DNA of 23,065 bases from a virus, in the IMG/VR virus record IMGVR_UViG_3300044807_000118, positions 1 to 23,065 of that record. One strand, 5' to 3'. The translations under genes and the position numbers were made by a program. The number at the start of each line of letters is the position of its first letter. The first letter of the stretch is position 1. This document shows positions 3,716 through 19,796 of this stretch, piece after piece. The notes under the pieces are model-generated. The model saw nothing but the letters and a program-made list of their open reading frames with translations. It was not told the DNA's origin and made no database searches.

Positions 3716-5038
3716 ATGGTGAAGCCTTGGGAAATGGATTGGAGCGCCGGCGATCCGGCGCCGGACGCGAGCCTGCTGCCGATCGTGCCTTTCTTCGGCC
3801 GGCAGCCGCCACCGATGCTGGATGCTGGCGGCGCGGGCATCGACGTTGGCGGGGTGCCGGCGACGGTCAATCAAGTGCAGGCCCCCGGCCCGTCGGCGAT
3901 CCAGGCAGCAGGTGCATCTCCGGTGACCGCGGCCGACCCCATGCCGATGCAGGCGGCCGGTACAACTTCGGCACCCCCAGCCTACCCTTTCGCAGTACCG
4001 TCGACGCTGCCATCGCCAGCGCTCGATGCAAAGATCCTGGCACGATATGGCCAGGTGCGCTCCGCAGCGCCTACCGCAGACTGGTTGAGCCAGCCGCCGC
4101 AGCCATCAGCCATCGACGCGCCAACTACGCTTGGTCCGTTGCCGGGCCCGGCCGGCCCGCAAGGACGGCATTCGGTGCAGCCGCCCGTCTACGACAGCTG
4201 GAGCGGGCTCACCGGTGGGACGGCAATTCAATCCAGCCCCAGTCAGATTGGTGCCATTCCAGCGCATCGGATGCTCGCACAGGCAGTAGGTGGCAATCTC
4301 TCACAGGCAACCGCCTCAGGGGGACGTGTGCCGCAGCAACCCGGAAGGTTTGTCCAGGCGCCGCCACCGCAGAACGCCCGGCAGGGGCCCGCGGCGCCGA
4401 TTGCGCCCGCCGCCGGTCCCCATGCGGCCGCCACAGTTCGGCCCAGGGTGCGTGGCGCCGGCAGGCTTTCGCCAGCCGGTACCTTGGCTAGGGCCCGGGT
4501 TGGGGCGCCTTTGCGAGATCGGCTCATCGCCGGCGGCCACAGCGTGGACGACGCGACGGCGCTGGCCGCCAACGCGGCAATGGAGAGCGGGGCCGATTAT
4601 CGTTCTCGCGAACGCATTCGCGGCCACCCGAATCAAGGTGGTCGCGGCTTATGGATGTGGACCGGGCCTCGGCGGGACCTGTTCCGCCGCACGATGGGGG
4701 TGTCGGTCGAGAACTCGACCGAAGACCAGCAGATCCGCTTTCAGGAATGGGAATTGGCACATACCGAAAGAAGAACGTGGCAGCACGCGCACGCCGCAGG
4801 ACGGGGCGCTCCGGACATCGCCGCAGGTTTTGCAACCTACGTCGAGAGGCCGGCAAACCCCACTCGAGACAGCGCGGAACGCGCTGCTGTGGCAGAAGCG
4901 ATGGGAGCGATCCCGGTGCATGTCACGGGAGGTAGGGGCAGCACGCCCGCTCGGAGGCCGCCTCAGCTGCCTTCTCCCCGGCCATCGCAACCCACCCCCG
5001 ATCGTGGTTGGGTTTTCGAGCCGGTGCACGGCGGCTGA
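3716..5038 (+). CDS. Virion-associated lysozyme A with KPWE-type N-terminal tag (tail-lysozyme-like C-terminus)
   Basis: This 440-residue protein is predicted to be carried in the virion and to cut peptidoglycan during DNA entry. Residues 1-42 hold the tag KPWEMDWS...LPIVPFFGRQPPPMLDAGG, shared with the protein at 18462-19796. Residues about 43-265 are a Pro/Ala/Gln-rich linker without predicted fold. Residues about 266-415 resemble phage tail lysozyme domains: a helix with AANAAMESGADY (candidate catalytic Glu290), GGRGLWMWTGPRRD, QIRFQEWEL and FATYVERPANPT. The start has GAAGGA six bases upstream. It sits between portal and scaffold, an unusual place, and is followed two bases later by the end of an opposite-strand secreted gene. 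Codon use looks less GC-biased than that of the portal, suggesting transfer. The enzyme class is inferred from motifs. Confidence 0.8.
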   Translation: MVKPWEMDWSAGDPAPDASLLPIVPFFGRQPPPMLDAGGAGIDVGGVPATVNQVQAPGPSAIQAAGASPVTAADPMPMQAAGTTSAPPAYPFAVPSTLPSPALDAKILARYGQVRSAAPTADWLSQPPQPSAIDAPTTLGPLPGPAGPQGRHSVQPPVYDSWSGLTGGTAIQSSPSQIGAIPAHRMLAQAVGGNLSQATASGGRVPQQPGRFVQAPPPQNARQGPAAPIAPAAGPHAAATVRPRVRGAGRLSPAGTLARARVGAPLRDRLIAGGHSVDDATALAANAAMESGADYRSRERIRGHPNQGGRGLWMWTGPRRDLFRRTMGVSVENSTEDQQIRFQEWELAHTERRTWQHAHAAGRGAPDIAAGFATYVERPANPTRDSAERAAVAEAMGAIPVHVTGGRGSTPARRPPQLPSPRPSQPTPDRGWVFEPVHGG

Positions 5039-5040
5039 AA

Positions 5041-5355
5041 TTAGCGGGTTCGATCCCTGGTACAGGGGAGCCAAGTCATCTGAAACTCAGCCGCGTCCCT
5101 GTTTCTTGAACCATGGCACCATCCGCGGCGCTCAAGCTGACGGACCAGCCGATCCCGCCGGCGGCATGTCGGCCCTTGCGGGTCCTCGCCAATGCCGCCG
5201 CGGCAGAGTTCGTTCCACCGGATCTCTCGATCGATGAGAGGTTGGATATCCTTCGGATAATATTGCCTGACATGAGCCTTCTGGGCCGTGGCTGCAGGTA
5301 CCGCGGCGCAGGCGATGGCGAGAAACGCGATGGTCCGCAAAAGTGCAAACGTCAC
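5041..5355 (-). CDS. Small secreted four-cysteine protein, opposite strand, cassette A
   Basis: This 104-residue reading frame starts at GTG (5355-5353) with AGGAG nine bases upstream. Residues 1-25 form a clear signal peptide (LLRTIAFLAIACAAVPAATA, then AQKA). The mature part has four cysteines (51, 64, 80, 98) and the pattern NELCRGGIGEDPQGPTCRRR followed by RDRLVRQLERRGWCHG. I recognise this pattern from small uncharacterised periplasmic proteins of proteobacteria but know of no proven function. It converges on lysozyme A with a two-base gap. The signal peptide is almost the same as that of the opposite-strand protein in cassette B (20869-21285), which argues that both are real genes. It could be a stabilising partner, an inhibitor or a moron product; I do not assign a role. 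Confidence 0.72.
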   Translation of the reverse strand: MTFALLRTIAFLAIACAAVPAATAQKAHVRQYYPKDIQPLIDREIRWNELCRGGIGEDPQGPTCRRRDRLVRQLERRGWCHGSRNRDAAEFQMTWLPCTRDRTR

Positions 5356-5445
5356 AGCCGCGGTCTCCTGAGCACGAGGATCAGTTTCGGTCGGCGCTCT
5401 TACCAGACCCGGTCCTATGGAACAACATGGGAACAGGGAGGCCGC

Positions 5446-5525
5446 CGACCGGCGGCGGAGCGCTTCCGCCTGATGCCGCCGCCGCAGGCACAGGGTGGTG
5501 CGGGCGGTTCCGGGGGACGCCGGGC
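5446..5525 (+). pseudogene. Remnant duplicate of the portal gene 3' region
   Basis: About 80 bases here closely match portal bases 3361 to about 3440: GACCGG, then CGGAGCG-TTCCGCCTGATG, then CCGCC-CAGGC-CAGGGTG, then GCGGTTC-GGGGG-CGCCGGGC. Read in one frame, it gives AERFRLMPPPQAQGGAGGSG against AERFRLMLPPQAQGAGSGSG in the portal. No portal start or core is present, and the match fades after about 5525. It lies downstream of lysozyme A and the opposite-strand gene, as expected if cassette A entered or was exchanged by recombination at the portal 3' end. Confidence 0.7.
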
Positions 5526-5668
5526 AGCAGCTCGGGGGATGATTTCCGAAAACAGCGTCAGTTCTGCTGCCAAAAGCCGGCACGTTGGCGTCCCTGCCGC
5601 AAAACAGATACGGTAAAGAGAGAATCGAAGCGCAACGGATGCAGCTTCGTCGGCAGTGAGGAGGCGCT

Positions 5669-6124
5669 ATGGATGGCATCAAGCTTTGTCGGCGCTTTCG
5701 CAGGCCAGCTCTGCTGTCGGGTGCCGCCGTCGCCCTCCTCATCGGGCACGTTGCTCCCGCTCCAGCCGCCGCGGAGGCCGGACAAGGGGCCGCTGCCGAT
5801 CCCTATGCGGCATGCTTGAAGACCGGCCAAGCCGCCGAAGGCGTCATGCCCGCTATCGAAGATTGCAATAGAGCGGAGCTCCACAGGAGCGACCAGGAAC
5901 TCAACCACTTGTACGCCGGCCTGATCCGCCGCCTGCCGCCGTCGCAGGTGCGTGCGCTGCGAGCTGGTGAAAGAGCCTGGGTTCAACACCGTGACAGAAC
6001 TTGCATGAAGGAAGCCGGCGGAGCGTCTCAAGACGAAGATGTCTCGTATCTCCAATGCCTCCTCCGTGAAACCACCGATAGAATACAGTGGCTAAGGCAT
6101 CGGTACAAAAACGGGGTCCGTTAG
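5669..6124 (+). CDS. LprI/DUF1311-family secreted protein, cassette A (putative lysozyme inhibitor)
   Basis: This 151-residue protein has an arginine-rich start, a hydrophobic segment (about residues 14-30) and an Ala-rich cleavage region, so it should be exported. The mature part carries four cysteines (49, 66, 112, 130) and the LprI-like signature: helix DQELNHLYAGLIRRLPPSQV, then ERAWVQHRDRTC with Trp104, Arg108-Asp109 and Cys112. Proteins of this family include the mycobacterial lysozyme inhibitor LprI, though most members are untested. A strong SD (GAGGAGG) ends five bases before the ATG. A weak promoter-like pair, TTGGCG (5585-5590) and TACGGT (5609-5614), lies 18 bases apart upstream, so independent expression is possible. 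Its position after a virion lysozyme suggests protection of the host wall or exclusion of related phages; this is inference. Confidence 0.83.
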   Translation: MDGIKLCRRFRRPALLSGAAVALLIGHVAPAPAAAEAGQGAAADPYAACLKTGQAAEGVMPAIEDCNRAELHRSDQELNHLYAGLIRRLPPSQVRALRAGERAWVQHRDRTCMKEAGGASQDEDVSYLQCLLRETTDRIQWLRHRYKNGVR

Positions 6125-6339
6125 CCTTTTTGGCGATCGGCACGCTAAAACCGGGGCGCAGGAATTGAGCATGTGTCCTTGGGATTCCTGTTTGTCAGGC
6201 AAACGCAGCTTTTTGCGGGATCGCTCGTACCGCGGCCGCTGAAGCCGATCGTATTCCTTACATTTGATTTTCCCGCCAACCTTTCGAGGAGCGGGTCAAC
6301 CCGCCGCGCCGTGAGGCGCGGCTTTTCCCGGAGATGGAT
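6125..6339. other. Leader region before the scaffold gene
   Basis: No gene is supported in this gap. It holds CGCA/TGCG flanking a T-run near 6208-6220, an AT-richer stretch TATTCCTTACATTTGATTTT near 6250-6269 that could contain a promoter, and the GUGA-loop hairpin described separately. A similar TTCCTACATTT word occurs at 21419-21429, upstream of the lysis module. Confidence 0.4.
6303..6326 (+). promoter_or_regulatory. GUGA-tetraloop hairpin with T-run, scaffold leader
   Basis: GCCGCGCC, loop GTGA, GGCGCGGC form a perfect 8-bp stem capped by a GNRA-type tetraloop, followed by TTTT and 7 bases later the first ATG of the scaffold frame. The form fits an intrinsic terminator or a processing/attenuation hairpin. 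A shorter relative in the same sequence context precedes the coat gene (7402-7415). Confidence 0.5.
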
Positions 6340-7224
6340 ATGGAATTCGAAAGTGCGACCAATCCGGTCGAGGGTGCCGACACGTCGCTCGTCGACATCG
6401 GCAGCCCGGCGCAGGAAGTCCCCCAAGAGATCGACCCGTCGACAAGCTCAGGGCAGGCGCCCGAGGAAGAGGAGCCGGGCGATGCGGATTCCGCTTCCGA
6501 GATCGAGGAGATCGAGCATGACGGCCGCAAGTACCAGGTGCCGAAGGCGCTGAAGGACGCGTTCCTTCGGCAGGCCGATTACACCCGCAAGACCCAGGAG
6601 GTGGCGGATCTGCGCCGGGCCGTCGAGGCCGAGCGGCAGGCCATCCGCGGCGCCGGCGAGGCGGAGGTGGCGGCGCGGGCGCAGCTGGTCACGATCGACC
6701 AGCAGCTCGCCCATTATCAACGGATCGACTGGGATGCCTGGGAGGACCAGGACCCGTTCGAGGCCCAGAAAGGCTGGCGGCAGTTCCAACAGCTCCAGAA
6801 TGCCCGGTCCCAGGCCGCCGGGCAGTTCGCGCAAGTCGCGCAGCAGCGCCATCTCGTCCAGCAGCAGGAGACTGCCAGGCAGATCGAGGAAGGGCGCGCC
6901 GTGCTCGCGCGCGACATCAAGGACTGGTCGCCCCAGCTCGCCGAAGCGCTGCTGGACCATGGCGTTTCGCAATACGGCTTTCAGCGCGGGGAGATCGAGG
7001 AATTCACCGATCCGCGCATGGTGAAGGTCCTGCACGACGCCTGGCAATATCGAAGCATCACCCGCAGGCAGCAGCAGGCGCAGCGCCACGCCGCCGCCCA
7101 GACCGCCCAGCCAGCAGCCCGGGTGGGGACCAGCGCGTCTCCGCCCAAGGGACTGGACGACCGGCTGAGCGTCGACGAATGGGCGCGGCGCCGGAACGAG
7201 CAGGTCCGCAAGCGGGCCCGCTAG
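6340..7224 (+). CDS. Capsid scaffolding protein
   Basis: This 294-residue acidic, helix-rich protein lies directly before the major coat gene, the standard place for a P22-type scaffold, which guides prohead assembly and is then released. Residues 1-60 are acidic and disordered. YQVPKALKDAFLRQADYTRKTQEV is a segment I know from phage scaffold and head-assembly proteins. The middle (about 95-180) is Gln/Ala-rich coiled coil, and the C-terminus is basic (WARRRNEQVRKRAR), as expected for coat binding. The ATG at 6340 is preferred because GGAG lies six bases upstream; the ATG at 6334 abuts the same SD with no spacing. Residues about 33-40 (PSTSSGQA) come from a dispersed repeat fragment. Confidence 0.82.
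   Translation: MEFESATNPVEGADTSLVDIGSPAQEVPQEIDPSTSSGQAPEEEEPGDADSASEIEEIEHDGRKYQVPKALKDAFLRQADYTRKTQEVADLRRAVEAERQAIRGAGEAEVAARAQLVTIDQQLAHYQRIDWDAWEDQDPFEAQKGWRQFQQLQNARSQAAGQFAQVAQQRHLVQQQETARQIEEGRAVLARDIKDWSPQLAEALLDHGVSQYGFQRGEIEEFTDPRMVKVLHDAWQYRSITRRQQQAQRHAAAQTAQPAARVGTSASPPKGLDDRLSVDEWARRRNEQVRKRAR
6437..6458. repeat. REP-like fragment inside the scaffold coding region
   Basis: The bases CGTCGACAAGCTCAGGGCAG followed by GC correspond to a dispersed repeat common in sphingomonads, whose reverse reading is the frequently seen peptide PELVEG (here PELVDG). It is read in frame as PSTSSGQA in the disordered N-terminus, so it is tolerated. The repeat assignment rests on memory, not a search. 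Confidence 0.5.
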
Positions 7225-7401
7225 GGCGGTTGCCGCGCCGTGCCGGCGCCCCTCCACCGCACTTCGTGCGCCCCCCCCTCCCAACGGCCTGCGGCCGCAG
7301 GGAGGACCGGGTGGGGCCTCCCGGCCGCCGATCCTTCACGCGCCGCCCATAAAGCGGCACCCTTTCCCGCAGGGAGAGGGGCTTTCTTTCAACCCACACC
7401 C
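7225..7401. repeat. Intergenic repeat-rich spacer between scaffold and coat
   Basis: This spacer has no supported gene. It contains several imperfect palindromes: CCTCCC with GGGAGG around GGCCTGCGGCC (about 7277-7304), and CCCTTTCCC-GCA-GGGAGAGGG (about 7359-7379), which resembles a known style of sphingomonad dispersed repeat. GC-rich purine/pyrimidine tracts dominate. Function unknown; the repeats may act as processing or termination sites that tune scaffold versus coat expression. Confidence 0.4.
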
Positions 7402-7415
7402 GCGCCGTGAGGCGC
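7402..7415 (+). promoter_or_regulatory. Short GUGA-loop hairpin, coat leader
   Basis: GCGCC-GTGA-GGCGC forms a five-pair stem with the same GUGA loop as at 6303-6322. Both are preceded by TCAACCC and followed by TTCCC and a GATGGA-TGGAATT or GATGGAATTT context, so the two leaders look like copies of one element placed before scaffold and coat. Confidence 0.45.
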
Positions 7416-7443
7416 CGGCCTTCCCACAGATGGAATTTCACCC

Positions 7444-8640
7444 ATGGCAAACAGCCTTTTGACTCCCGTTGCGGTGACCCGCGAGGCGCTCCGCATCCTC
7501 CACCAGAAGCTCAACTTCGTCGGCAATATCGTCCGCGAATATGACGACAGCTTCGCCAAGTCCGGCGCCAAGATCGGCGACACGCTGAAGATCCGCCTGC
7601 CGAACCAGTATACGGTCCGGACCGGCGCGACCTTGAGCGCGCAGGACACGTCGGAGACCAATGTCGCCCTGCAGGTCGCGACCCAGAAGGGCGTCGACCT
7701 CAACTTCACCTCGGCCGACCTGACGATGAGCCTGGACGATTTCTCCTCGCGCATCCTCGAGCCGGCGATGTCGGTGCTCGCCGCCAATATGGAGGCGGAC
7801 GCGCTCTCGATGTACAAGGACGTCGCCAATTCGGTGTGGAACGGCGGCTCGGCAGCGACGCTTTCCAGGGTGCTGCAGGGCCGCAAGATCCTGCAGGACC
7901 ATCTGGCGCCCTCCAACGACCGCACCGCCTTGCTCAACACCCAGGACCAGGTCGACATCGTCACCGACGTCAAGGGCCTGTTCAACGCCCAGGAGGTGAT
8001 CGCCAAGCAATATAAGGAGGGCTATGTCGGCCGCACCGCCGGCTTCGACTTCGCCGAGAACACGCTGGTGCCGGCCCATAGCCGCGGCGCGGCGAACGGC
8101 GCCTACACGACCAACACCACGGCCCTGGCGACCGACGGCACCGAATATGCCGCGATCACCGTCGCCACCGGCACCGGCACGCTGAAGAAGGGCGACGTGG
8201 TCACCATCGCCGGGATCAACCGGGTCCATCCGGAATCCAAGGCGGACCAGGGCGTCGCGCGCCAGTTCGTCGTCACCGCCGATTATGCGGGCGGCGGCGG
8301 ATCGGTGGCGATCTCGCCGTCGATCGTGCTGGGCGGCGCCAAGCAGAACTGCGTCGCCGCCGCGACCGGCGCCACCCAGGCGGTGAGCGTCGCCGGCACC
8401 GCCTCGACCGCGGTGGGCACGTCCTTGCTGTTCCAGAAGGAAGCCTTCGCCTTCGCCACCGCCGATCTGGTGATGCCGCAGGGCGTCGACTTCGCCCGGC
8501 GCGAGGTGATGGACGGCATCTCGATGCGCGTCGTCCGGCAGTACGACATCAACTCGGACCGGTTCCCGACCCGGCTCGATGTCCTCTACGGTTACAAGAC
8601 GCTGCGCGGGGCGCTGGCCTGCCGGCTGCACAACAACTGA
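7444..8640 (+). CDS. Major capsid (coat) protein, P22 gp5-like
   Basis: This 398-residue protein is the main shell subunit. The start MANSLLTPVAVTREALRILH and the following NFVGNIVREYDDSFAKSGAKIGD match the N-arm and E-loop region of P22-type coat proteins. About residues 210-310 form a beta-rich Gly/Thr/Val insertion resembling the P22 I-domain, and the C-terminal DGISMRVVRQYDINSDRF with YGYKTLRG is typical of the P-domain end. The ATG at 7444 has only a weak SD in its leader, notable for a highly expressed gene, so expression may depend on the upstream hairpin leader or coupling. A strong terminator follows at 8702-8733. Confidence 0.92.
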   Translation: MANSLLTPVAVTREALRILHQKLNFVGNIVREYDDSFAKSGAKIGDTLKIRLPNQYTVRTGATLSAQDTSETNVALQVATQKGVDLNFTSADLTMSLDDFSSRILEPAMSVLAANMEADALSMYKDVANSVWNGGSAATLSRVLQGRKILQDHLAPSNDRTALLNTQDQVDIVTDVKGLFNAQEVIAKQYKEGYVGRTAGFDFAENTLVPAHSRGAANGAYTTNTTALATDGTEYAAITVATGTGTLKKGDVVTIAGINRVHPESKADQGVARQFVVTADYAGGGGSVAISPSIVLGGAKQNCVAAATGATQAVSVAGTASTAVGTSLLFQKEAFAFATADLVMPQGVDFARREVMDGISMRVVRQYDINSDRFPTRLDVLYGYKTLRGALACRLHNN

Positions 8641-8652
8641 TGATGCGGGGCT

Positions 8653-8824: not shown

Positions 8825-8843
8825 CCAAGCGAAGGAAATGCGC

Positions 8844-9467
8844 ATGGCGACTTTGGCGCAGCTGCAGACGCGGATCATCCTCGATACCAATCGCGACGAT
8901 CTCGGAGCGGGCGGCGAGCTGGCTCAGGCGCTGACCGACGCGATTGCGGATGCGATCGAAACCTATGCGGACGAACCGTTCTGGTTCAACCGTGCGACGG
9001 GAAATGCGACCACGACGAACGTTGCCACCGTCGCTCTTCCCGCCGGGATGCGGGCGGCGAGCCTGGTGACCTGCCAAGGAATGGCGCTCCTGAAAGTGCC
9101 GCTGGCGAGCCTGCAGGGGCGGGTCGAGACGGGCCTCCCCTGCCGCTGGGCGGAGGAGGGCGGGCTGCTCCATTTCTGGCCGACGCCCGACGCGGCCTAC
9201 GTGCTGGGCGTTTACGGAATCGCCGATCTCGGCGTTCCCGCCTCGTCCAACGCCTGGACCAATGAGGGCTACCGGCTGATCCTCGCCTGCGCCAAGAAGA
9301 TCCTCGCCCGCGGCTCGCTGCGCGATCCCGACGGCATGGCGCTGGCCCGCGACGAGGAAGAGGAGGCGCTGGCGAAGCTGCGCCGCGAGACGCGGCGGCG
9401 GGCGGCGAGCGGCCTGACCGCGGATCTTCCCGGCCGCGCCGGCTTCAGCATCGCGACCGGCCGGTGA
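8844..9467 (+). CDS. Head-tail adaptor protein (phage adaptor family)
   Basis: This 207-residue protein probably binds below the portal and seals the filled head. The helical start MATLAQLQTRIILDTNRDDL with ADAIETYADEPFWFNRATGN resembles podoviral adaptor proteins that begin with a TLxxLxxRI helix and an ERFWFNE-like segment. The C-terminus is basic and Arg-rich (about residues 170-195). ATG 8844 is preferred over 8838 because the SD GAAGGA ends seven bases upstream of it. The stop overlaps the fibre start (GTGA). The family call is from recognition of the N-terminal pattern. Confidence 0.72.
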   Translation: MATLAQLQTRIILDTNRDDLGAGGELAQALTDAIADAIETYADEPFWFNRATGNATTTNVATVALPAGMRAASLVTCQGMALLKVPLASLQGRVETGLPCRWAEEGGLLHFWPTPDAAYVLGVYGIADLGVPASSNAWTNEGYRLILACAKKILARGSLRDPDGMALARDEEEEALAKLRRETRRRAASGLTADLPGRAGFSIATGR

Positions 9468-11455
9468 GGCTGTTTACCCCGTCCGAGGGGCCGGTCTGGC
9501 TGCGGCGCTTCGCGGATTCGATCCTCGCCGCCTTCAAGCAGGTGATGGACGCGCCGTTCCGACTCTGGCCCTCGGCGACGGCCGACCTGCCGGCCGCCGC
9601 CGATCATGGCGGCGGCCTCGCCTGGAACGCGACCGTCTCGCGCATCGCCTATTCGGACGGCGGCGCCTGGCAGGAGGTGCAGCCCTACGACCCGACGCTG
9701 GCGGCGCTGGCGGCCTATAATGCCAACGGCCTAGTCGCGCAGACCGCGCCCGACGCCTTCGCCGCCCGCACGATCCTCGGCCCGGCGGCCGGACTCACCA
9801 TCGCCAACGGCAATGGCGTCGCCGGCAATCCGACCCTGGGGCTGGCCAACGATCTCGCCGCGCTGGAAGGGCTGAGCGGCACCAGCACGATCTACTATCG
9901 TTCGGGCGCGGACGCATGGTCGGCGGTGACGATCGGCGGCAATCTCGGTTTCGCGGGCGGCACGCTCGGCTCCGCTTTGGGCAATGCGGCGACGAAGACG
10001 ATCGGCACGTCCGGGGCCGCGGTGCCGCTGCTGAACGGCGGGAACATTCACTCCGGCGCCAATATCTTCTCCGGCCCCTTGCGGCACGCCAGCGCGGCGG
10101 AGGCGGCGCGGTTCGAGGGCGTCGCGACCCAGGCCCCGACCGGCTCGACCGGCCTCGGGGTGGAGATCGTCCAGCAAGGCGGCGTTTGCTACGTTCTTTC
10201 CTACAACCGCACCACCAATGCCTTCGGGCCGTTGAGCGTCGACGGCGCCAGCGTTTCCTTCCGGACGAACGGGACGCAAACGGCGTCCTTCACCTCGACC
10301 GCCGCCTCCTTCGCCACCGGCGCCAGCTTCGGCGGCGGGATCTCGACGACCTCCGCATCGGTACAGGCCGGCTATCAGCAGACCGGCCATGCCAATCCGA
10401 CCGTATCGCTGATCCCCACCGGATGGGGCAGCACGGCCACGGACGGGTTCAACATGCTGGGCGGCGTCAACGCGGCCAACAATGCGTCGGGCGATTACGG
10501 GCTGCTTTACGTGAAGAGCGGGAAGACGATCGGGCTGATGGCCGGCTCGTCGCTGGTGGCCGAGTTCAGCGGCAGCCAGGCCAGGCTCAACCAGGTCGCC
10601 GTCGCCACCGGCGGCTCGCTCTACAGCTGTTCGGTGAACCGCGCCGGCCAGTGCGGCTATCATCTCTACAATGGCGGCGCGATCCAGGAATGGCTCGTCT
10701 ACCAGCCGGCCCATGCCAGCGGCGACGATTTCCGCATCGCCACCCTCAACAGCGGATTCGTCACCGACCGGCTGACGGTCTCGACGGTCGGCGCGGTCTC
10801 GATCGGCAACAGCCTCACGGTCGCGAACAACGTCCGGGCGACCGACGCGACCTTTCTTCAGTCCGGCCAGGGGAACATCTCGATCTCCCACAGCGCGGCG
10901 AGCGGAACGCCGACCACCTCCATACTCGCCGCTTCGGCCTGCAACCTTTCGCTCGGCGCCAATGGCGGGTCGATGCTCGACATCACCAGCAGCGGCGTCG
11001 CCATCGTCTCGGGCACGACGGCGTCGGCGGCGAACGTCTTCCAGTCGGCGAGCGGGGCGCAGTTGCTGCGATCGACCTCCTCGATGCGCTTCAAGCAGGA
11101 TGCGCGGCCGCTCGGCGAGGAGGAGGCGGAGCGGCTGCTGCGGCTCGAGCCCTTCACCTATCGCTCGAAATGCGCGGCGGACGACCGGCGCCGGCGGCAT
11201 TGGGGCGTGAGCGCGGAGCAGGCGCTCGCGGTCGGACTCGGCAAGCTCGTCCACCGCGAGCCGGACGGGATGCCGGCCGGTTTCATGTACGAACGGGCGG
11301 TGGCCGGCCTGATCGCTATCGCCCGGAGCGAGCGGGCGGCGCGGAGAGCGCTGGAGGCGCGGATGGCGGCGGCGGAGCGGGCGCTCGGCCTGCGCGGAAC
11401 GCCCGCCGCCATCCGTGGTGCCCGCCGGTCGAAGCTGATAACGGATCAAGAATGA
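9464..11455 (+). CDS. Tail fibre/spike with C-terminal S74 intramolecular chaperone
   Basis: This 663-residue receptor-binding protein uses GTG, overlapping the preceding stop. Residues 1-60 should anchor it to the tail (RLFTPSEGPVWLRRFADSIL). The middle is Gly/Thr/Ser/Ala-rich beta-repeat sequence, as in trimeric fibres, with motifs such as YDPTLAALAAYNANGL and NGNGVAGNPTLGL. The end (about residues 535-650) is an S74 peptidase/chaperone: SSMRFKQDARPL places candidate Ser539 and Lys544 five apart, as in the endosialidase dyad, followed by RLEPFTYRSK, HWGVSAEQA, YERAVAGLIAI and a long basic helix. The chaperone is expected to trimerise the fibre and cut itself off. The host ligand cannot be read from sequence. 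Confidence 0.88.
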   Translation: MRLFTPSEGPVWLRRFADSILAAFKQVMDAPFRLWPSATADLPAAADHGGGLAWNATVSRIAYSDGGAWQEVQPYDPTLAALAAYNANGLVAQTAPDAFAARTILGPAAGLTIANGNGVAGNPTLGLANDLAALEGLSGTSTIYYRSGADAWSAVTIGGNLGFAGGTLGSALGNAATKTIGTSGAAVPLLNGGNIHSGANIFSGPLRHASAAEAARFEGVATQAPTGSTGLGVEIVQQGGVCYVLSYNRTTNAFGPLSVDGASVSFRTNGTQTASFTSTAASFATGASFGGGISTTSASVQAGYQQTGHANPTVSLIPTGWGSTATDGFNMLGGVNAANNASGDYGLLYVKSGKTIGLMAGSSLVAEFSGSQARLNQVAVATGGSLYSCSVNRAGQCGYHLYNGGAIQEWLVYQPAHASGDDFRIATLNSGFVTDRLTVSTVGAVSIGNSLTVANNVRATDATFLQSGQGNISISHSAASGTPTTSILAASACNLSLGANGGSMLDITSSGVAIVSGTTASAANVFQSASGAQLLRSTSSMRFKQDARPLGEEEAERLLRLEPFTYRSKCAADDRRRRHWGVSAEQALAVGLGKLVHREPDGMPAGFMYERAVAGLIAIARSERAARRALEARMAAAERALGLRGTPAAIRGARRSKLITDQE

Positions 11456-12096
11456 AGATCGCGATCTGCATCCCGTGCCACCGCGACACCAAGGCGAGAT
11501 TCACCCTCTCTCTGGCCGGGATGCTGGTCCACAGCGCGCGGGTGATGCCGGACGAGTTGAAGACGATGCTGGCGCAAGGGCCTTTGCTCGACGTGCGCGA
11601 GGGCCTGGTCCATGCAGCGCGGGGCTGGGGCGCGGACTGGATCCTGTGGCTCGATGCCGACCACACCTTCCCGAACGAGACGCTGGTCCGGCTGCTCGGC
11701 CACGGCAAGGACGTCGTCGCCTGCAATTACGCCCGCCGCACGGCCGCGCCGGAGCCGGTGGCGCAGCGCGACGGGCGGCTGGTGCAGACGAGCGAGGCGC
11801 TGGCGAAAAGCGGAGCGGTCGAGCCGGTCGACGCGATCGGCCTCGGCGTCTGCCTGATGCGCGCCGCGGTCTTCGACCGGCTGGACCCGCCTTATTTCCA
11901 GCTCGAGCCGAAGCCGGACGGAAGCGGCTATGTGTCGGAGGATTTCACTCTGTTCCGCCGGCTGAAGCGGGCCGGGGTCACGGCCCATGTCGACCACGGC
12001 CTCAGCTGGAAGATCGGCCATATCGGCGATCTCATCTACACCACCGCCGCCATGGCTGGCGGAACGGGCAGCGACGGGCCGCCGGCGGCGGGCTGA
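11452..12096 (+). CDS. Phage GT-A-fold glycosyltransferase, copy 1
   Basis: This 214-residue protein overlaps the fibre stop (ATGA). It opens with MKIAICIPCH and has WILWLDADHTFP around residues 62-74, where DAD is the nucleotide-sugar/metal motif of GT-A enzymes. Further motifs are VVACNYARR, DAIGLGVCLMR, SEDFTLFRRLKRAG and VDHGLSWKIGHIG. It is paralogous to 13004-13627. Position within the fibre module suggests glycosylation of a virion protein or of the host surface glycan; no flippase or anchor protein of a gtr cluster is present, so a soluble target such as a fibre or coat protein is equally possible. Donor sugar unknown. Confidence 0.8.
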   Translation: MKIAICIPCHRDTKARFTLSLAGMLVHSARVMPDELKTMLAQGPLLDVREGLVHAARGWGADWILWLDADHTFPNETLVRLLGHGKDVVACNYARRTAAPEPVAQRDGRLVQTSEALAKSGAVEPVDAIGLGVCLMRAAVFDRLDPPYFQLEPKPDGSGYVSEDFTLFRRLKRAGVTAHVDHGLSWKIGHIGDLIYTTAAMAGGTGSDGPPAAG

Positions 12097-12183
12097 CGCC
12101 GCTTATCGATTTCGCGCGCGCCGAGGCTGCCGGACCGCCGGCGGCATCGCCGCGCGCACGTCACCTGCAAGAGAGGGCATGAG

Positions 12184-13003: not shown

Positions 13004-13627
13004 GTGAAAATCGCGATCTGCTATCCGGCGCACAGCGAAACCAAAGCTCACTTCACACTTTCATTGGTCGGCATGGTGACGCACATTCTCAGCCAACGCC
13101 TCGTCGTCAACGGCGAAGAGGTTCGGCCCGAAATTCGCACCCACATGGTACCTGGCAATTCGAACATTGCGCGCGCTCGGGAGCGGCTGGCGGAGATCGC
13201 GCTGGAATGGAACCCCGATTACCTCCTCTGCGTGGACGTAGATCAGACATTCCCACCCGATACGTTCTTTCGCCTCGCTACGCATGACGTCTCGTTCGTC
13301 GGCTGCAACATCCGGAAGCGTGATCCGGATCGGGTTGTCTCAACGGCTCGCAATTTTGTCGGGGAACGGACCGTCGCCATCGAGCCTAAGTCGGAGGGAT
13401 TGGAGCCCGTCGATTTTGTCGGCTTCGGGGTCGCACTGATAAAGGCCGGGGTCTTCACTGCCCTGCCACGCCCGTGGTTTGAGAATGGGCGCTATGGTGA
13501 GGACGGGCACTTCTGCCGGCTGGCGAAGGCACATGGCATCCAGCCTTACGTCGACCACGGACTTTCGATGGAAGTCGGGCACATCGCCGAAACCGTGCTG
13601 CGCTTCCCGGGCTCACCGGCCGCATAG
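13004..13627 (+). CDS. Phage GT-A-fold glycosyltransferase, copy 2
   Basis: This 207-residue paralogue of 11452-12096 shares MKIAIC-P-H---TKA-FTLSL at the N-terminus, a DxD motif (YLLCVDVDQTFPPDT, about residues 72-86), EPVDFVGFGVALIKAGVF, and the C-terminal YVDHGLSMEVGHI. The first catalytic Asp context differs (DVDQT against DADHT), and copy 2 has an extra segment after residue 30 (QRLVVNGEEV...MVPGNSNIARARE), so donor or acceptor may differ. It begins with GTG and has a weak SD. Codon use is visibly less GC-biased than neighbouring structural genes, suggesting separate acquisition rather than recent tandem duplication. Confidence 0.8.
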   Translation: MKIAICYPAHSETKAHFTLSLVGMVTHILSQRLVVNGEEVRPEIRTHMVPGNSNIARARERLAEIALEWNPDYLLCVDVDQTFPPDTFFRLATHDVSFVGCNIRKRDPDRVVSTARNFVGERTVAIEPKSEGLEPVDFVGFGVALIKAGVFTALPRPWFENGRYGEDGHFCRLAKAHGIQPYVDHGLSMEVGHIAETVLRFPGSPAA

Positions 13628-13792: not shown

Positions 13793-15268
13793 TTGCTCAC
13801 AGCTTTCTCGCCGCCGCCGGGGCTCGTCTCCGACGATACCAGCTTCGCCGCCGAAGGCCGGTGGACGGACGGTTCCAACGTCCGCTTCCGGGATGGCAAG
13901 CCGCAGGTGATCGGCGGCTGGTCGACGACCGGCCGCGCCGCCTTGCTCGGCACCTGCCGCTCGCTCCACGCCTGGACGATCGGCAATGTCTTCTATTGCG
14001 CCATGGGGACGACGGCGCGGCTCTATGTCGAGACCGGCGGCGCGCTCTATGACATCACCCCCGCGGCCGACATCGCCGAGACCGGCCTGTGGTCCTTCGC
14101 CAATTACGGCAACGACCTGCTCGCCCAGAGCGCAGGCGGGACCATCTATCGCTGGCAGGGCGACACCGGCGCCGACGCCGGCGCGCTGCCGAACGCGCCT
14201 TATTATGTCGGCGCCGGCATCCTCGTCACGCCGCAGCGCCAGGTGCTCGCCCTGTTCGCCAATGAGGCGCTGTCGGGGATCGTCAACCCGATGTGCATCC
14301 GGGGGTCGGACCTCGAGGATCCGACCGCCTGGGACAGCATGGCGACGAACAACGCGTTCGAGCATATCCTCGACGGGCCCGGCCGGATCGTCGCCGGCGC
14401 GATCGTCGGCGACCATGTCGTCATCTGGACCGACACGGCCTTGTTCCTCGGCACATTCCTCGGCGATCCCGGCCAGACCTACCGCTTCGAGAAGATCGCC
14501 GCCGATTGCGGCCTCTATTGCCAGACCGCGGCCGTGATCGTCGACCAACGCGCCTATTGGTACGGCAGCGACGGACGGTTCTGGACCTGGACGGTCGGCA
14601 TGCTGCCCGAGCATGTCGAATGCCCCCTGCTCAAGGACCTCAACGACAATCTCAACCGGACGCGGGACACCAATTTGTCGCGCATGTTCGCCACCCCGGT
14701 GTCCCGCCATGGCGAGATCTGGTGGTTCTATCCGCGCGGCGGCAGCGCCGAATGCACGAATTACGTCGCTTTCTCGACCCGGGACGTCGCCTGGTTCAAG
14801 GGCGCGCTCGCCCGCACCGCCTTCCTCGACGATCCGCTGATCCAGCGGATGCTCGCGCCGGGCGGGGCGGCGCAGATCAAGATCACCAACTGCATCGGCG
14901 TCGACGCGGCGGGCATCGGCTACTTCCATGAATATGGGAGCAACGCCAACGGCGCCGCGCTCGACTGGTTCATCCAGAGCGGCGACCAGTCGATCGAGCA
15001 GAGCGGGCGGCGGATGCTGGTCCGCGGCATCGTGCCGGACTTCAAGGATCAGCTCGGCAATATCTCGCTGACCCTCTCCTGCCGCGACCGGCCGCAATCG
15101 GCGGCGGTCGTCAAGGGTCCCTATACGCTGACGCCGACGACAACGAAGAAGGACTTCCGGGCCTCCGGCAGGATCCTTGCCGTCAAATTTTCCGGCGGCG
15201 CGGCGACCGGCTCGTTCATGCGGCTCGGCAAAGTGCTGTTCGACGTGGTGCCGGCGGGGCAAAGATGA
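13793..15268 (+). CDS. P22 gp10-like packaged-DNA stabilisation / tail hub protein
   Basis: This 491-residue protein is close to the length of P22 gp10, which closes the portal channel. The start region LTAFSPPPGLVSDDTSFAAE with GRWTDGSNVRFRDGKPQVIGGW is a pattern I associate with gp10-type hub proteins of alphaproteobacterial phages. The body is a series of beta-blade-like repeats (NVFYCAMGTTARLYV, YGNDLLAQSAGGTIYRW, HVVIWTDTALFLGTF, QRAYWYGSDGRFWTW). TTG at 13793 is preferred because GGAGG lies just upstream and homologues begin near this point; the longer frame from 13673 has no family-like sequence. The stop overlaps the next start. Confidence 0.82.
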   Translation: MLTAFSPPPGLVSDDTSFAAEGRWTDGSNVRFRDGKPQVIGGWSTTGRAALLGTCRSLHAWTIGNVFYCAMGTTARLYVETGGALYDITPAADIAETGLWSFANYGNDLLAQSAGGTIYRWQGDTGADAGALPNAPYYVGAGILVTPQRQVLALFANEALSGIVNPMCIRGSDLEDPTAWDSMATNNAFEHILDGPGRIVAGAIVGDHVVIWTDTALFLGTFLGDPGQTYRFEKIAADCGLYCQTAAVIVDQRAYWYGSDGRFWTWTVGMLPEHVECPLLKDLNDNLNRTRDTNLSRMFATPVSRHGEIWWFYPRGGSAECTNYVAFSTRDVAWFKGALARTAFLDDPLIQRMLAPGGAAQIKITNCIGVDAAGIGYFHEYGSNANGAALDWFIQSGDQSIEQSGRRMLVRGIVPDFKDQLGNISLTLSCRDRPQSAAVVKGPYTLTPTTTKKDFRASGRILAVKFSGGAATGSFMRLGKVLFDVVPAGQR

Positions 15269-15666
15269 GCCCCGCGTGCCGACCCGCAAACGTCCAGTGG
15301 GCGGATTATCGTCCTTGGCGCGGCGCGTTCGAAAAGGCGCTCGATCCGCGCTTCTGCGCGATCGAGCATCTCGACGCGCGGATCAGCGGCGACAGCGCGC
15401 GGATCTTCGCCTGTGCCGAGGCGGCGCTGATCGTCGAGCTGCGGCACTATCCGACCGGCGCCTATGACGGCCACGTGCTGATCGCGGCCGGCGATCCCAA
15501 GCAGGTCGTCGCCACCCTGCGGCCCCGGGCGGAGGCGTGGCTGCGTTCGATCGGCGCGCTCGGCGCCCTGGTCGAGAGCCGGCCGGGCTGGGCGCGGCTG
15601 CTGAAAGAGCATGGCTACGAGCCACATCAAATGACGCTGAGGAAGGATTTCGCCCGATGGACCTGA
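15265..15666 (+). CDS. GNAT-like phage protein
   Basis: This 133-residue protein overlaps the hub gene by ATGA and the next gene by ten bases. The pattern AALIVELRHYPTGAYDGHVL...LRPRAEAWLRSIGALGALVESRPGWARLLKEHGY resembles the core strands and C-terminal end of GNAT acyltransferases, but the acetyl-CoA pyrophosphate loop (Q/R-x-x-G-x-G/A) is not obvious, so it may be catalytically altered or structural. Similar genes lie between hub and ejection-protein genes in related phages. A small head-tail or acyltransferase role is possible; I do not assign a substrate. Confidence 0.6.
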   Translation: MSPACRPANVQWADYRPWRGAFEKALDPRFCAIEHLDARISGDSARIFACAEAALIVELRHYPTGAYDGHVLIAAGDPKQVVATLRPRAEAWLRSIGALGALVESRPGWARLLKEHGYEPHQMTLRKDFARWT

Positions 15667-16583
15667 GCATGTTCCCGCCGGAGATACAGGAGATGATGCG
15701 GCTCCAGCTCGCGCAGTCCGGACAGGATGCGGGCGGCGGCGGGGGCGGCGTCGCCGATCCCGGCCGGCGCCTGGCGCAGCCCGGTCCGGCGCCGCAGGGG
15801 ACGCCGCTCCCGGCGCCCGATCCCATGCTCGCCGGCAACGATGCGCTGCGCCGGCAATTTGCCGGCCAGCCCGGCATGCAGCCGTGGCTCGACCAGCGGG
15901 AGGCGCATCTCCTGGGGCACGGGGCGGCCGATCCCGCCCTCGCGCCGGGGCCGTCCGCTGCGCCGCAGATGCAGGCGCCGGATTACCCGCAGCCTGCCCC
16001 CTCCGCCCCGCCGCCGCCGCCTGCCGCGATCGACCCGCCGCCGGTCTTTGCGCCGGCCCCCGTCTTCGCGTCGCCGCCCCGCCCCGCGCCGCCGCCGATG
16101 CTCGCGGACCCGCCCGCCCCCCGGTTTGCCGCGGCGCCGCATCCGTTGCTCGCCGGTACGCCGCTGCCGCGGCAGGCGCCGCTCATTTCGGAGGTCTCGC
16201 CCGCGCCCGCGGCCCCCGCTTCGGCCCAGATCGACAATCGGGTCGCGCCGCCGCAGCGCAGCTTCGCGCCGGCCTGGCAGCCGCCGGCGCTGCCGTCCTT
16301 CCTCAATGCGACCCTGGTGCCGAACCCGGGGGCCTACCGGCCGGGCCCGGCCATGCCCGGCTACGGGCTGCCGCGGAGCGGCAATCCGTTCCGCCCGGCC
16401 GCCCGGAACGCGCCGCTTCTGCCCGGCTTCGACGCTCCGTTCGCCGGCGCCGCGACCGGCGGGCCGATCGGGCCCGGCGGCGGGGCGGACCATGCGGCGC
16501 CGACCCTGGCCCAGCAGCCCTATGACGAATCCCTCTATTCCTCCTTCCTCCGCCCGATCTCCCCCGGAATCCGCTCCTATTGA
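15657..16583 (+). CDS. Proline-rich virion-associated protein, unknown
   Basis: This 308-residue protein starts MDLSMFPPEIQEMMRLQLAQ, a short helical segment, and then becomes Pro/Ala-rich low-complexity sequence with repeats such as APSAPPPPPAAIDPPPVFAP and PPPMLADPPAP. The C-terminus (DESLYSSFLRPISPGIRSY) is more ordered. AGGAAGG lies about ten bases before ATG 15657, inside the preceding gene. No catalytic motif is seen. It lies directly before the putative ejection protein and has compositional similarity to the linkers of the two virion lysozymes, so it may be another ejected or tail-tube-lining protein. Function unknown. Confidence 0.62.
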   Translation: MDLSMFPPEIQEMMRLQLAQSGQDAGGGGGGVADPGRRLAQPGPAPQGTPLPAPDPMLAGNDALRRQFAGQPGMQPWLDQREAHLLGHGAADPALAPGPSAAPQMQAPDYPQPAPSAPPPPPAAIDPPPVFAPAPVFASPPRPAPPPMLADPPAPRFAAAPHPLLAGTPLPRQAPLISEVSPAPAAPASAQIDNRVAPPQRSFAPAWQPPALPSFLNATLVPNPGAYRPGPAMPGYGLPRSGNPFRPAARNAPLLPGFDAPFAGAATGGPIGPGGGADHAAPTLAQQPYDESLYSSFLRPISPGIRSY

Positions 16584-16615
16584 GGCCCGGGATCCACTCT
16601 TACCAAGGAACGAAG

Positions 16616-18037
16616 ATGGGCCTTTCCTCGAGCAAGTCGACCCAGACGAGCAGCAGCAACCAGACGCAGAACGCGACGACCACGCCCCAGAACCCGTCCT
16701 GGGTGACGGATTCGCTGACCGACTATACCGGCCGCATCGGATCGATGCTGGACGCCGATCCCAATGCCTTCGTCGCCGCCGCCTCGCCGCTCCAGCAGCA
16801 GGCATGGGGCAATGCCGACCGGCTCGGCCTGTGGACCGGCAATGCCAATGCCGCGTCGAACATCGCCCTCGACGCGGCCAACGCGCCGGCGAGCAATGTC
16901 CCCGGCGCCGCCGGCTACGGCGCGGCGCGGGGCAATGCGTCGACCTGGACGCCGGCGGCGCTGGCCAATCCGCGCGAAGTGGGCGCGAACGGCTATTCGG
17001 CGGCGCAGGCGGGTCGGGTCGGGATCGATCCCGTCGCCAATGGCCGGGCGAGCGACGCCCATGCCGCCAGCCTGCTCTCCGGCTTCGCCGATTACATGAA
17101 CCCGTATCGCGACCAGGTGGTGAATTCGGCGATGGCCGATTTCGACCGGCAGGCGGGGCAGCAAAGGGCGGCGCTGGAGGCGCAGGGCGCGCGCAACGGC
17201 GCCTTTGGCGGCTCGCGCTTCGGCATCGCCCAGGCGGAGCTCGAGGGCAATCTCGCCCGCGCCCGCAGCTCGAGCGAGGCCGGGCTGCTGAGCGACGGCT
17301 TCGACCGCGCCGCCGGCCTTTCCCAGTTCGACGCGGCGAACCGCCAGCAGGCGAGCCTGTTCAACGCCCAGAATCGTACCGGAGTCTCGACCGCCAACGC
17401 CGCCGCCGCCAACCAGCGCGCGCTCAGCCAGGCCCAGCTCGACGCGCAGACCGGCCTCGCCAATGCCGATGCGCGGAGCCAGGCGGCGCAATTCGGCGCG
17501 GCGGCGCAGAACGCTGCGTCGCTGGCCAATCAGGGGGCGTCGAACCAGTTCGCGCTCGCCCAGGCGGGGATGCAGAACGATGCGTCCCGCTATGCCGCCG
17601 ATGCGCATAACGAGCTCAATCGGGATTACCTGACCCGCGCCGACCAGGCGGCGCAGTTCGGCGCCTCGGCGGAGAATGCGGCGAACCTGTTCAACGCGCA
17701 GCAGCGGGAGGCGGGGCTCAACCGCCAGCTCACCGCGGCGAGCGCGCTGAACGGCTTCGGCAGTGATTACGGCGCCAATACGCGGGCCGATCTCGGCGCG
17801 CTGGCCTCGCTCGGCGACGCGCAGCGCCAGGTCGAGCAGGCCTATGCGCTGGCGCCGCTCGCCCAGCTGCAGGCGGGCGGGCAATTGTTCGGGGCGACGC
17901 CGTTCCAGCTCTTCACCGGGCAGAATGTGGCGTCGAACGGCACGTCGAGCGGCACCGGCACGACGATTTCGACGCCGTCCCTGTTTAGCCAGCTGCTGGC
18001 TGCGGCGTCGGTCGCCTCCAGCTTCGTGCCGAAATAG
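16616..18037 (+). CDS. Putative DNA-ejection/internal virion protein
   Basis: This 473-residue protein begins with a Ser/Thr/Gln/Asn-rich flexible region (GLSSSKSTQTSSSNQTQNAT) and PSWVTDSLTDYTG, then is long, helical and rich in Ala, Gln and Asn. Near-repeated units occur at about residues 289 and 343 (QAAQFGAAAQNAASL against QAAQFGASAENAANL). The C-terminal tail ends in a hydrophobic segment (LFSQLLAAASVASSFVPK). Such coiled-coil Ala/Gln proteins after hub genes usually form the ejectosome that crosses the cell envelope. SD AAGGAA is five bases upstream of 16616. I infer an ejection role from composition and position. Confidence 0.68.
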   Translation: MGLSSSKSTQTSSSNQTQNATTTPQNPSWVTDSLTDYTGRIGSMLDADPNAFVAAASPLQQQAWGNADRLGLWTGNANAASNIALDAANAPASNVPGAAGYGAARGNASTWTPAALANPREVGANGYSAAQAGRVGIDPVANGRASDAHAASLLSGFADYMNPYRDQVVNSAMADFDRQAGQQRAALEAQGARNGAFGGSRFGIAQAELEGNLARARSSSEAGLLSDGFDRAAGLSQFDAANRQQASLFNAQNRTGVSTANAAAANQRALSQAQLDAQTGLANADARSQAAQFGAAAQNAASLANQGASNQFALAQAGMQNDASRYAADAHNELNRDYLTRADQAAQFGASAENAANLFNAQQREAGLNRQLTAASALNGFGSDYGANTRADLGALASLGDAQRQVEQAYALAPLAQLQAGGQLFGATPFQLFTGQNVASNGTSSGTGTTISTPSLFSQLLAAASVASSFVPK

Positions 18038-18054
18038 CGAAAGAGGAAACGGAC

Positions 18055-18345
18055 ATGGGAATATTGAGCGGCGTCGGCCCGGGGCTGAGCGGATTGTTCG
18101 GCAAGGCGGATCTGGGCGACGGCATTGCGCAGGCGCAGGCCTATCTCGACGGCGATTATCTGTCGGGAGCCAAGATCGCGGCCGCCCGATTCCGCCGGCA
18201 ACGGCAAGCGCAGCCGGCGCCGGGAACGGTGGTCGACGGCTATCGCTTCAAGGGCGGCGACGCCAAGGCGGCCGGTTCCTGGGAGCCTGCCGCCGCCGTC
18301 GGCGCGGGAATGCCCATTCCGCTTGATTTCGGAGCCTGGCGCTAG
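18055..18345 (+). CDS. Small protein with GYRFKGGD motif, likely ejection-associated
   Basis: This 96-residue protein has GILSGVGPGLSGLFGKAD at the N-terminus and VVDGYRFKGGDAKAAGSWEP near the C-terminus. The 'GYRFKGGD...SWEPV' pattern is one I associate with small proteins beside ejection genes in alphaproteobacterial phages. There is no signal peptide. AGAGGAAAC precedes the start and the gene follows the preceding stop by 17 bases. Exact role unknown. Confidence 0.65.
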   Translation: MGILSGVGPGLSGLFGKADLGDGIAQAQAYLDGDYLSGAKIAAARFRRQRQAQPAPGTVVDGYRFKGGDAKAAGSWEPAAAVGAGMPIPLDFGAWR

Positions 18346-18461
18346 GCCACCCGCCGCAGGCGGACTTCGGCCGCGAGCCCCTTTCTTGTGAATAAGAGCA
18401 ATTCTCCGTTCCAGACCGTCGCGACGACTGTCGGATGGCCGCCAGCATCGAAAGGCCTCAC

Positions 18462-19796
18462 ATGCCAAAACCTTGGGAAATCGACTGGAGCAGCGGCCCT
18501 CAGCCCGAGCAGGACATGCCGCCGATCGTGCCGTTCTTCGGCCGGCAGCTGCCGCCGATGCTGGACTCGGGCGGTTCGGCGATCGGCCCATCGGCTATGC
18601 CCTCGGCGGGCTCCTCCCCAATGCTCAGCCCGGACCCGTTGGCGGTGCCCTCCCCGAATCCGTTTCAGGCGCTCGTCGCAAACCCGCAGGCCGTAGAAGC
18701 GCCGGACCCGTCGGCGGGGGCCGCCGCAGACCGGTTCGCCCGGTGGCCGCAGCCTTGGCCGGCCGCTCCGTCCATGCCCGATCTGCTGTCCGGCTCAGTG
18801 GGAACGGACGGCCAGCCTCTTCTGCAGCCAGCCGTTCCGCACAGCTGGGGCGACCTCGGCGCGCAAGCGGCACCCTCGCCTGCGCCCATCCTGGGCGACC
18901 CCGTTCCGCCGTCCCTCATGCTCGCAGCGTTGCAGGCGCCTAACGGCCGCCATCCGGCCGATTCCGCTCCCCCGGCTGCGATGCGGCGCAACGGCGCGCA
19001 ACCGCCGACGAGGGGTGTGGAGGCGGCGCCCGGGAGGCCTTCCGCGCCGGCAGGGCTGCCCGGCCGGCAAGCGCACCCGCTGATGTCACAGCCTGGCAAT
19101 ATGGCCCGGCGACAGACCAGCGAGTTGGGAACGCTCGCGGCGGAGCGTGAAACCAGTGGAAGAGGGCCCAATCCAGGCCTCGTATCGACGGGCGTGGGCG
19201 ATCGCGGCGGCATTTCCTACGGAACCTATCAATTGGCCACTCGAACCGGGACGGCCAGGGAATTCGCCGCCAGCCCCGAGGTAAGACGATATGCGCCCGA
19301 GCTTGCCCGCTTGGCGCCGGGTCAGCCGCAATTCGCGGCGGAGTGGCGAAGAATCGCCGCTCGAGACCCAATCGGTTTCCAAGCTCTGCAGCACGCCTTC
19401 ATGCAGCGCACCCATTATGAGCCCGCAGTGAGGCGTGTCGCCCAATCGACCGGGCTCGATCTCCAGGCCCGAAGCGACGCCGTACGAGAATTGGCCTGGT
19501 CTGTGGCCGATCAGTTTCACAACGCCGCCCCCGGCATCATATCGCGGGCAATCGGGAGCGCCGATCGAAGCTTACACAGAGACGATGCACGTTATGATGC
19601 TGCGCTTATCGACGCCATCAACGACGCGCGGTCTGCGCCTCATATAAGTCGGCGGGACGGCTTGCTCGACCGAGCTCAACGCGCCAATCCAGCCGCACGA
19701 GCGCGCTTGCGTGCCGCCGCCCATCATGAGGACAATCTCATCCATGGGTGGGAGCGCGAGCGACAAAGGGCTCACCAGATCTTGAACGGGCACTGA
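18462..19796 (+). CDS. Virion-associated lytic enzyme B with KPWE-type tag (different catalytic end)
   Basis: This 444-residue protein starts MPKPWEIDWSSG and PPIVPFFGRQLPPMLDSGG, the same tag as lysozyme A. The proline-rich linker also keeps short matches to A (LQPAVPHSWGDL against VQPPVYDSWSGL; SLMLAALQA against HRMLAQAVG). From about residue 215 the proteins are unrelated: here RETSGRGPN (candidate catalytic Glu230), GDRGGISYGTYQLATR, REFAASPEVRRYAPELARL, FQALQHAFMQRTHYEPAV, LDLQARSDAVRELAWSVADQ, then a basic helical C-terminus. I know the 'SYGxYQ(L/M)A' module from phage and type VI secretion peptidoglycan hydrolases, but the exact bond cut is not certain. AAGG lies six bases before ATG. 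It is followed by an LprI-type gene, as lysozyme A is. Confidence 0.8.
   Translation: MPKPWEIDWSSGPQPEQDMPPIVPFFGRQLPPMLDSGGSAIGPSAMPSAGSSPMLSPDPLAVPSPNPFQALVANPQAVEAPDPSAGAAADRFARWPQPWPAAPSMPDLLSGSVGTDGQPLLQPAVPHSWGDLGAQAAPSPAPILGDPVPPSLMLAALQAPNGRHPADSAPPAAMRRNGAQPPTRGVEAAPGRPSAPAGLPGRQAHPLMSQPGNMARRQTSELGTLAAERETSGRGPNPGLVSTGVGDRGGISYGTYQLATRTGTAREFAASPEVRRYAPELARLAPGQPQFAAEWRRIAARDPIGFQALQHAFMQRTHYEPAVRRVAQSTGLDLQARSDAVRELAWSVADQFHNAAPGIISRAIGSADRSLHRDDARYDAALIDAINDARSAPHISRRDGLLDRAQRANPAARARLRAAAHHEDNLIHGWERERQRAHQILNGH

Follow-up and report, generated by a model that had tools for sequence, protein, structure and literature searches.

Exchangeable wall hydrolases with a shared N-terminal tag, and their small, apparently exported partners, in a P22-like phage

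Two tagged hydrolases in a podovirus genome

The window analysed here, the 23,065 bases of IMG/VR record IMGVR_UViG_3300044807_000118, belongs to a short-tailed phage (podovirus) with a P22-like portal gene (1507..3669, + strand; PF16510, 2.6e-180), genes resembling those for terminase, scaffold and coat, a gene for a gp10-like stabilisation protein (phrog_3287) and a separate endolysin gene (21891-22670). The phage is possibly a cryptic prophage. The idea of a gene transfer agent was rejected, as a portal homologue occurs in only 5 of 299 genomes of the bacterial family, at 41-56% identity except in one genome, G001, described below.

Two genes of this phage begin with a common peptide, the tag. 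Effector A (3716-5038, + strand, 440 aa) follows the portal gene and comprises the tag (3716..3841, + strand, 42 codons), a Pro/Ala linker and a PF18013 phage tail lysozyme domain (Phage_lysozyme2; aa 268-395, 6.7e-12). Effector B (18462-19796, + strand, 444 aa) lies instead in the ejection block, in the place of the last ejection protein of P22-type phages, and joins its tag (18462..18584, + strand, 41 codons) through a linker to a PF21277 VgrG3-like muramidase domain (aa 222-392, 9.5e-37), which also matched the solved VgrG3 structure 4noo at 7e-20. Upstream of effector B are a structural, probably ejection-type protein (16580..18037, + strand), whose upstream position is kept in relatives, and a small protein (18055..18345, + strand) that is probably of ejection type, judging by its position and its relatives; family profile searches gave no match for either.

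Both coding sequences open right at the tag (MVKPWEMDWS for effector A, from 3716, and MPKPWEIDWS for effector B, from 18462), with the consensus M-x-KPWE-[IM]-DWS ... PIVPFFGRQ-x-PPMLD-x-GG. The two proteins align by BLASTP over 188 aa (E = 1e-20) and are 60% identical over the first 48 aa, and their catalytic parts, PF18013 and PF21277, are unrelated. The original prediction of a common N-terminal tag in front of unrelated C-terminal domains thus holds. Its further claim of shared linker words holds in part: most of the six proteins with the tag that are considered below contain the word QPxVxxSW (QP-x-V-x-x-SW) in varying form, whereas the remainder of the Pro/Ala-rich linkers is mostly unalignable beyond about residue 45, so we define the tag proper as about 42 residues plus this word.

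Each tagged hydrolase adjoins a gene for a small protein that appears to be exported by a home-made hydropathy rule for signal peptides; the protein is either an LprI-type lysozyme inhibitor or a member of one of three families, X, Y and W. These partner genes had escaped the original reading of the sequence. Convergent to effector A lies X1 (5041..5355, - strand, GTG start), a proposed immunity gene of family X with a signal-peptide-like start. Effector B is flanked by LprI2 (19970..20500, + strand; PF07007, 5.9e-8), also with a signal-peptide-like start, and then by the convergent, apparently exported Y1 of family Y (20869..21285, - strand). A further LprI-type gene with a signal-peptide-like start, LprI1 (5669..6124, + strand; PF07007, 2.4e-14), has no hydrolase of its own. 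The LprI proteins score 54.0, 33.5 and 56.5 bits against the PF07007 profile (cut-off 22), and one LprI query against INPHARED gave no match. For families X, Y and W no known homologue was detected, and the AlphaFold model of family X (pLDDT 72.7) had no meaningful match in the PDB. Promoter scans found none for X or Y and were uninformative.

The orphan LprI1 is preceded by two remnants. One is a copy of the portal 3' end (5443..5525, + strand), 86% identical to window positions 3357-3439, which would mark the start of a lost second cassette; the other, just before LprI1 (5581..5657, + strand), is what is left of a PF21277-type effector gene, namely its final ~26 codons, which match the end of effector A3 of the sister prophage. 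These remnants indicate that a second cassette was lost and LprI1 left behind. Orphan immunity genes are a hallmark of toxin-immunity arrays.

Cassette exchange with a sister prophage

A near relative of the window phage is a prophage in one bacterial MAG (G001, JAQGLF). Over most of the structural genes that the two have in common, to the left and to the right of the tagged genes, their DNA is 87-90% identical. The sister prophage has four tagged genes, each with a different catalytic domain, and the tag is thus not confined to two proteins of one genome. Three stand in tandem between portal and scaffold and carry, in order, PF18013, a transglycosylase that we call A2-type, and PF21277; the fourth, with an SLT domain, occupies the later slot, which in the window holds PF21277. 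Together the two genomes thus encode six tagged proteins with PF18013 (two), PF21277 (two), SLT and an SLT-like/phrog_4067 transglycosylase.

Comparison of the two genomes locates the edges of the exchanged DNA. For effector A, where the end of the tag was set by alignment, identity to G001 is 0.76-0.91 within the tag and falls to about 0.5 just past it. In the later slot, the tag forms a conserved island (0.75-0.84) with about 0.4-0.5 in either flank. On its right edge, identity is 98-100% down to about position 21200 and about 50% beyond, with a breakpoint near 21166, some 40 codons into gene Y and past its signal-peptide region. Accordingly, Y1 and the G001 Y protein are 97% identical over the first 37 aa and 49% identical in the mature part: the signal peptide is constant and the mature part variable. 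With breakpoints just after the tag and inside Y, the exchanged block begins where the tag ends and reaches into the convergent partner gene. In the portal-adjacent slot, X1 is 39% identical to X of G001 and LprI1 62% identical to the LprI adjoining A3.

About 500 bp of the 3' end of the portal gene are duplicated upstream of a G001 tagged gene, and the downstream tagged genes of G001 are each preceded by such a copy (87% and 83% identity). Within the tag, pN in the motif columns was below pS for 14 of the 15 pairs and close to it for the last, which suggests purifying selection on these columns.

Searches of INPHARED and IMG/VR for the KPWExDWS tag found no carrier other than those already known, and INPHARED gave no match to KPWE; among the 299 family genomes, G001 alone rose above noise. 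The KPWE tag is thus known from two genomes, and a second tag, NWW, from five IMG/VR contigs. The latter tag (M[PA]QNWW[ED]x[FY]PE) is found in phages among the relatives with portals 47-73% identical to that of the window, in front of PF07486 hydrolase, SLT and lambda-lysozyme-type domains.

Partner type and catalytic domain

Under a single uniform rule (ORF ≤1.2 kb downstream), a small, apparently exported ORF follows all 11 of the genes for tagged hydrolases or hydrolases of the same families, compared with 4 of 22 genes for control ejection-type proteins (Fisher p = 7e-6). This p value is optimistic, because several members of the first set are orthologues and the rule was framed once the pairs were already known. 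The type of partner follows the catalytic domain: LprI lies beside PF21277 in 3/3 cases, X beside PF18013 in 4/4 (window, G001, a remnant in L025, and L079) and W beside the A2-type transglycosylase in 2/2, counts that are not independent since several cassettes are orthologous. Family X genes are convergent to the effector in five cases and otherwise on the same strand. An LprI neighbour was not seen beside the two PF21277 genes of one unrelated genome, and among 385 genomes of the bacterial class PF21277 was too rare for a test of LprI linkage.

The A2-type/W pair, which we regard as the most telling case for domain-specific partners, occurs under two different tags: after the portal with a KPWE tag in G001, and after the coat gene with an NWW tag in L080. 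The catalytic domains of the two proteins align from residue 224 (44%, E = 2e-58), and the W proteins are 30% identical (E = 6e-23; Smith-Waterman score 204 compared with 34 +/- 5 for shuffles). At the sequence level, hydrolase and partner thus move together, and the tag keeps to its phage lineage.

Much of this could in principle reflect ordinary modular evolution, in which ejection proteins are duplicated, their wall-cutting domains are shuffled by recombination to suit the host peptidoglycan, and the small genes are morons that hitch-hike without any relation to the hydrolases. Mosaicism of ejection proteins is known, a hydrolase domain can move between proteins (PMC8954989), and the portal 3'-end duplications are signs of recombination. 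We nevertheless consider this account rather unlikely, for it leaves unexplained why the partner tracks the catalytic domain across tags and positions, why LprI accompanies all three PF21277 muramidases and why the downstream ORF is so much more frequent than beside control genes.

Tags in other phages and their proposed role

The original prediction had also pointed to PW(D/E)xDPIV-like N termini in other phage proteins, and these do exist. The PW[DE]xDPIV DNA pattern was found at 59 IMG/VR loci, in 42 of them with the motif ≤8 residues after a Met, and the motif is often repeated 15-25 residues further on. Many PHROG matches of 48 such proteins have no assigned function; informative names mostly concern virion, DNA-transfer or lytic proteins, and include DNA transfer protein, internal virion protein, head morphogenesis and virion RNA polymerase, as well as transglycosylase, endolysin and lytic tail protein. 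Pfam matches also include SLT, glucosaminidase and polyvalent-protein domains. Partial homologues in isolate phages are annotated as 'ejection protein' or 'putative injection protein', and phrog_36512 is common to six of the PW[DE]xDPIV proteins and an NWWDAFP protein of L069. Different repeats open proteins of two isolate phages (FDDL[VI]PA twice; PWEQYA/PWQNYA). The PW tag is not universal, being absent from ejection-type proteins of six P22-like isolates (BA3, EBPR, CV-1-33, P26218, PBR31 and MW202573), and a tblastn search of INPHARED with a generic 32-residue DPIV peptide, perhaps too short for BLAST, gave no match. The kinship of the DPIV motif with KPWExDWS...PIV is one of resemblance.

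These observations are consistent with the tag being a virion-loading signal. Alternatively, it could have a role other than that of a virion signal, for example in lysis or as the site at which an assembly chaperone binds. The presence of tagged proteins in virions is itself an inference, and the window has its separate endolysin gene; yet the position in the ejection-gene block and the analogous motifs that open ejection- or injection-type proteins elsewhere make such a role very improbable.

Toxin cassettes in a further relative fit the cassette reading and also bear on a different alternative. In prophage G227 (portal 54% identical), four places between portal and scaffold have a common start (MSGPKSLPKMLFEEDYARRLE or a variant); one gene in this portal-adjacent slot ends in a TNT toxin domain (4e-18), a genuine domain of polymorphic toxins, and the other C termini are variable. 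Between portal and scaffold of its sister G296 (coat 86% identical) there is no insert. Toxin cassettes thus occupy the portal-adjacent slot in more than one lineage. Virions might then deliver tagged effectors as antibacterial weapons that kill or stall competitors, with immunity genes shielding relatives, as proposed for the MuF toxins (PMC5576092), which together with the G227 slot provide a precedent. However, the cargo in the window consists of wall hydrolases only, enzymes that can help a phage to enter the cell, and killing a new host at entry would be costly to the phage. We judge a weapon function to be quite unlikely.

The layout does resemble that of the MuF polymorphic toxins of temperate phages, which likewise combine a constant N terminus, a variable C-terminal toxin, a portal-adjacent gene and a small downstream gene as presumed immunity (PMC5576092). 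By contrast, the phage studied here is a podovirus with a short peptide tag, wall-hydrolase cargo, apparently exported partners and a second slot in the ejection block, and partner exchange can be seen directly. Pfam scans found no MuF domain (PF04233/PF06152 and kin). Judged by their domains, the effectors are thus not MuF toxins by membership, although they are MuF-like in layout. The polymorphic-effector layout that had been proposed is better supported than the first reading could have known: six proteins of four catalytic types share a constant N terminus with a putative trafficking role, candidate immunity genes downstream match the domain, and LprI1 stands as an orphan beside its remnants.

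We favour, with moderate confidence, a reading in which a lineage-specific ejection-protein loading tag is fused to exchangeable wall-cutting effectors that travel with periplasmic immunity proteins, as a hydrolase/inhibitor system of the incompatibility type. Sequence comparison shows that the tag is shared, that catalytic domains are swapped, that cassettes were duplicated and lost, that partners go with particular domains and that one inhibitor gene is an orphan; we infer virion loading, inhibition of hydrolases by their partners and exclusion. The tag would be a docking peptide of the ejection-protein class and load its cargo into the virion, most simply by binding scaffold, portal or another ejection protein. 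The hydrolases, which would be peptidoglycan hydrolases ejected into the next cell, would cut the wall and allow DNA passage, and the one or two small exported proteins encoded beside each would be specific periplasmic inhibitors. As the hydrolases lack a signal peptide and would be made in the cytoplasm, such an inhibitor would guard mainly against hydrolase from outside; lysogens or infected cells would thereby gain immunity both to related virions and to lysis from without. A block swap between two conserved ends, the tag on one side and, on the other, either a copy of the portal end or the beginning of a convergent immunity gene, would change hydrolase and inhibitor jointly and thereby create incompatibility. 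In phage T4, the capsid targeting sequence of internal proteins, a short N-terminal peptide, sends cargo into the phage head; the likeness of our tag to it is in role alone, and no sequence relation is claimed.

Exported partners and hydrolases without signal peptides fit superinfection exclusion as in T4 Spackle and P22 SieA. Spackle is a phage-encoded periplasmic protein that acts against the gp5 tail lysozyme and confers superinfection exclusion and resistance to lysis from without (PMC7677548). The partners studied here are likewise predicted to be phage-encoded periplasmic proteins set against a virion lysozyme, but form several interchangeable hydrolase/partner pairs with putative inhibition rather than one fixed pair. 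No relation of LprI, X, Y or W to Spackle was detected; they are not Spackle but, by analogy, may act like it. With P22 gp7/gp20/gp16, the window shares gene order, the P22-type portal and the last ejection-protein position, and SieA exclusion is likewise aimed at ejection proteins (PMC10883804, PMC12005531), with escape mutations in gp16 and gp20 (PMC10883804). SieA, unlike the partners here, is an inner-membrane protein, and gp16 has no wall hydrolase domain (PMC8954989). In P22, ejection proteins are believed to dock on the scaffolding protein, whose N-loop aids gp16 assembly (PMC12005531). LprI proteins have already been proposed as T6SS immunity (PMC8867033, PMC12135965), and T6SS wall-hydrolase effectors offer a parallel in both the proposed LprI-type periplasmic immunity beside wall hydrolases and the PF21277 domain of VgrG3; here, however, hydrolase and LprI are both phage genes, and a phage tag replaces the T6SS carrier.

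More broadly, and as a tentative proposal, the short acidic-aromatic N-terminal peptides of podophages, each specific to a lineage (PW[DE]xDPIV, NWW[ED]xFPE, KPWExDWS and PWExYA) may be general virion-loading tags on ejection proteins that mobile toxin-immunity cassettes have adopted, with incompatibility groups set by the match between hydrolase and periplasmic inhibitor. The tags would offer a testable code by which proteins are addressed to phage heads. Phage-borne polymorphic effectors would gain a non-MuF family, LprI-type inhibitors are placed in phage genomes, and X, Y and W become new candidate families of hydrolase inhibitors. Escape from the inhibitors of resident prophages is a possible reason for the diversity of virion wall hydrolases, and the arrangement as a whole suggests swappable toxin-and-antidote modules carried in phage particles.

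Tail region

The window's tail protein (9464-11455) ends in an S74 chaperone domain, and the relatives L079 and L080 carry repeated AAPAAGLTIANPAGTAGNPTFALANDLAALE-like modules. Two glycosyltransferase-like genes that resemble each other (11599-12182 and 13004-13627) also lie in the tail region; their homologues are present again in L025, L027 and L029, sometimes on the opposite strand.

Repeats in ejection-type proteins

The probable ejection-type protein encoded at 16580-18037 has a 1,044-amino-acid homologue (L065, 1228-4359), enlarged through internal copies of a 55-amino-acid repeat unit. Short repeats other than the tags were seen at the N terminus of ejection-type proteins in isolate phages (L154-L157). 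FDDL[VI]PA occurs twice at the start of such a protein in Rhizobium phage RHph_Y1_10, and PWEQYA/PWQNYA repeats begin that of a Bradyrhizobium phage.

Gene neighbourhoods in related elements

In L070, an NWW-tagged, lambda-lysozyme-type effector is followed immediately by a gene (5901-6722) for an ankyrin-repeat protein with a signal-peptide-like segment. In the related prophage G227, tandem polymorphic-toxin-like genes with a common N terminus, one with a TNT domain, lie between portal and scaffold (L048, 6211-13709); its sister prophage G296 lacks them.

In the bacterial genome G001 (C326/C12), every gene of the element homologous to the window (1-23065) is structural or for lysis; neither a replication gene nor an integrase gene was seen. 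The genes on either side of the element look bacterial. This element may be a cryptic prophage.
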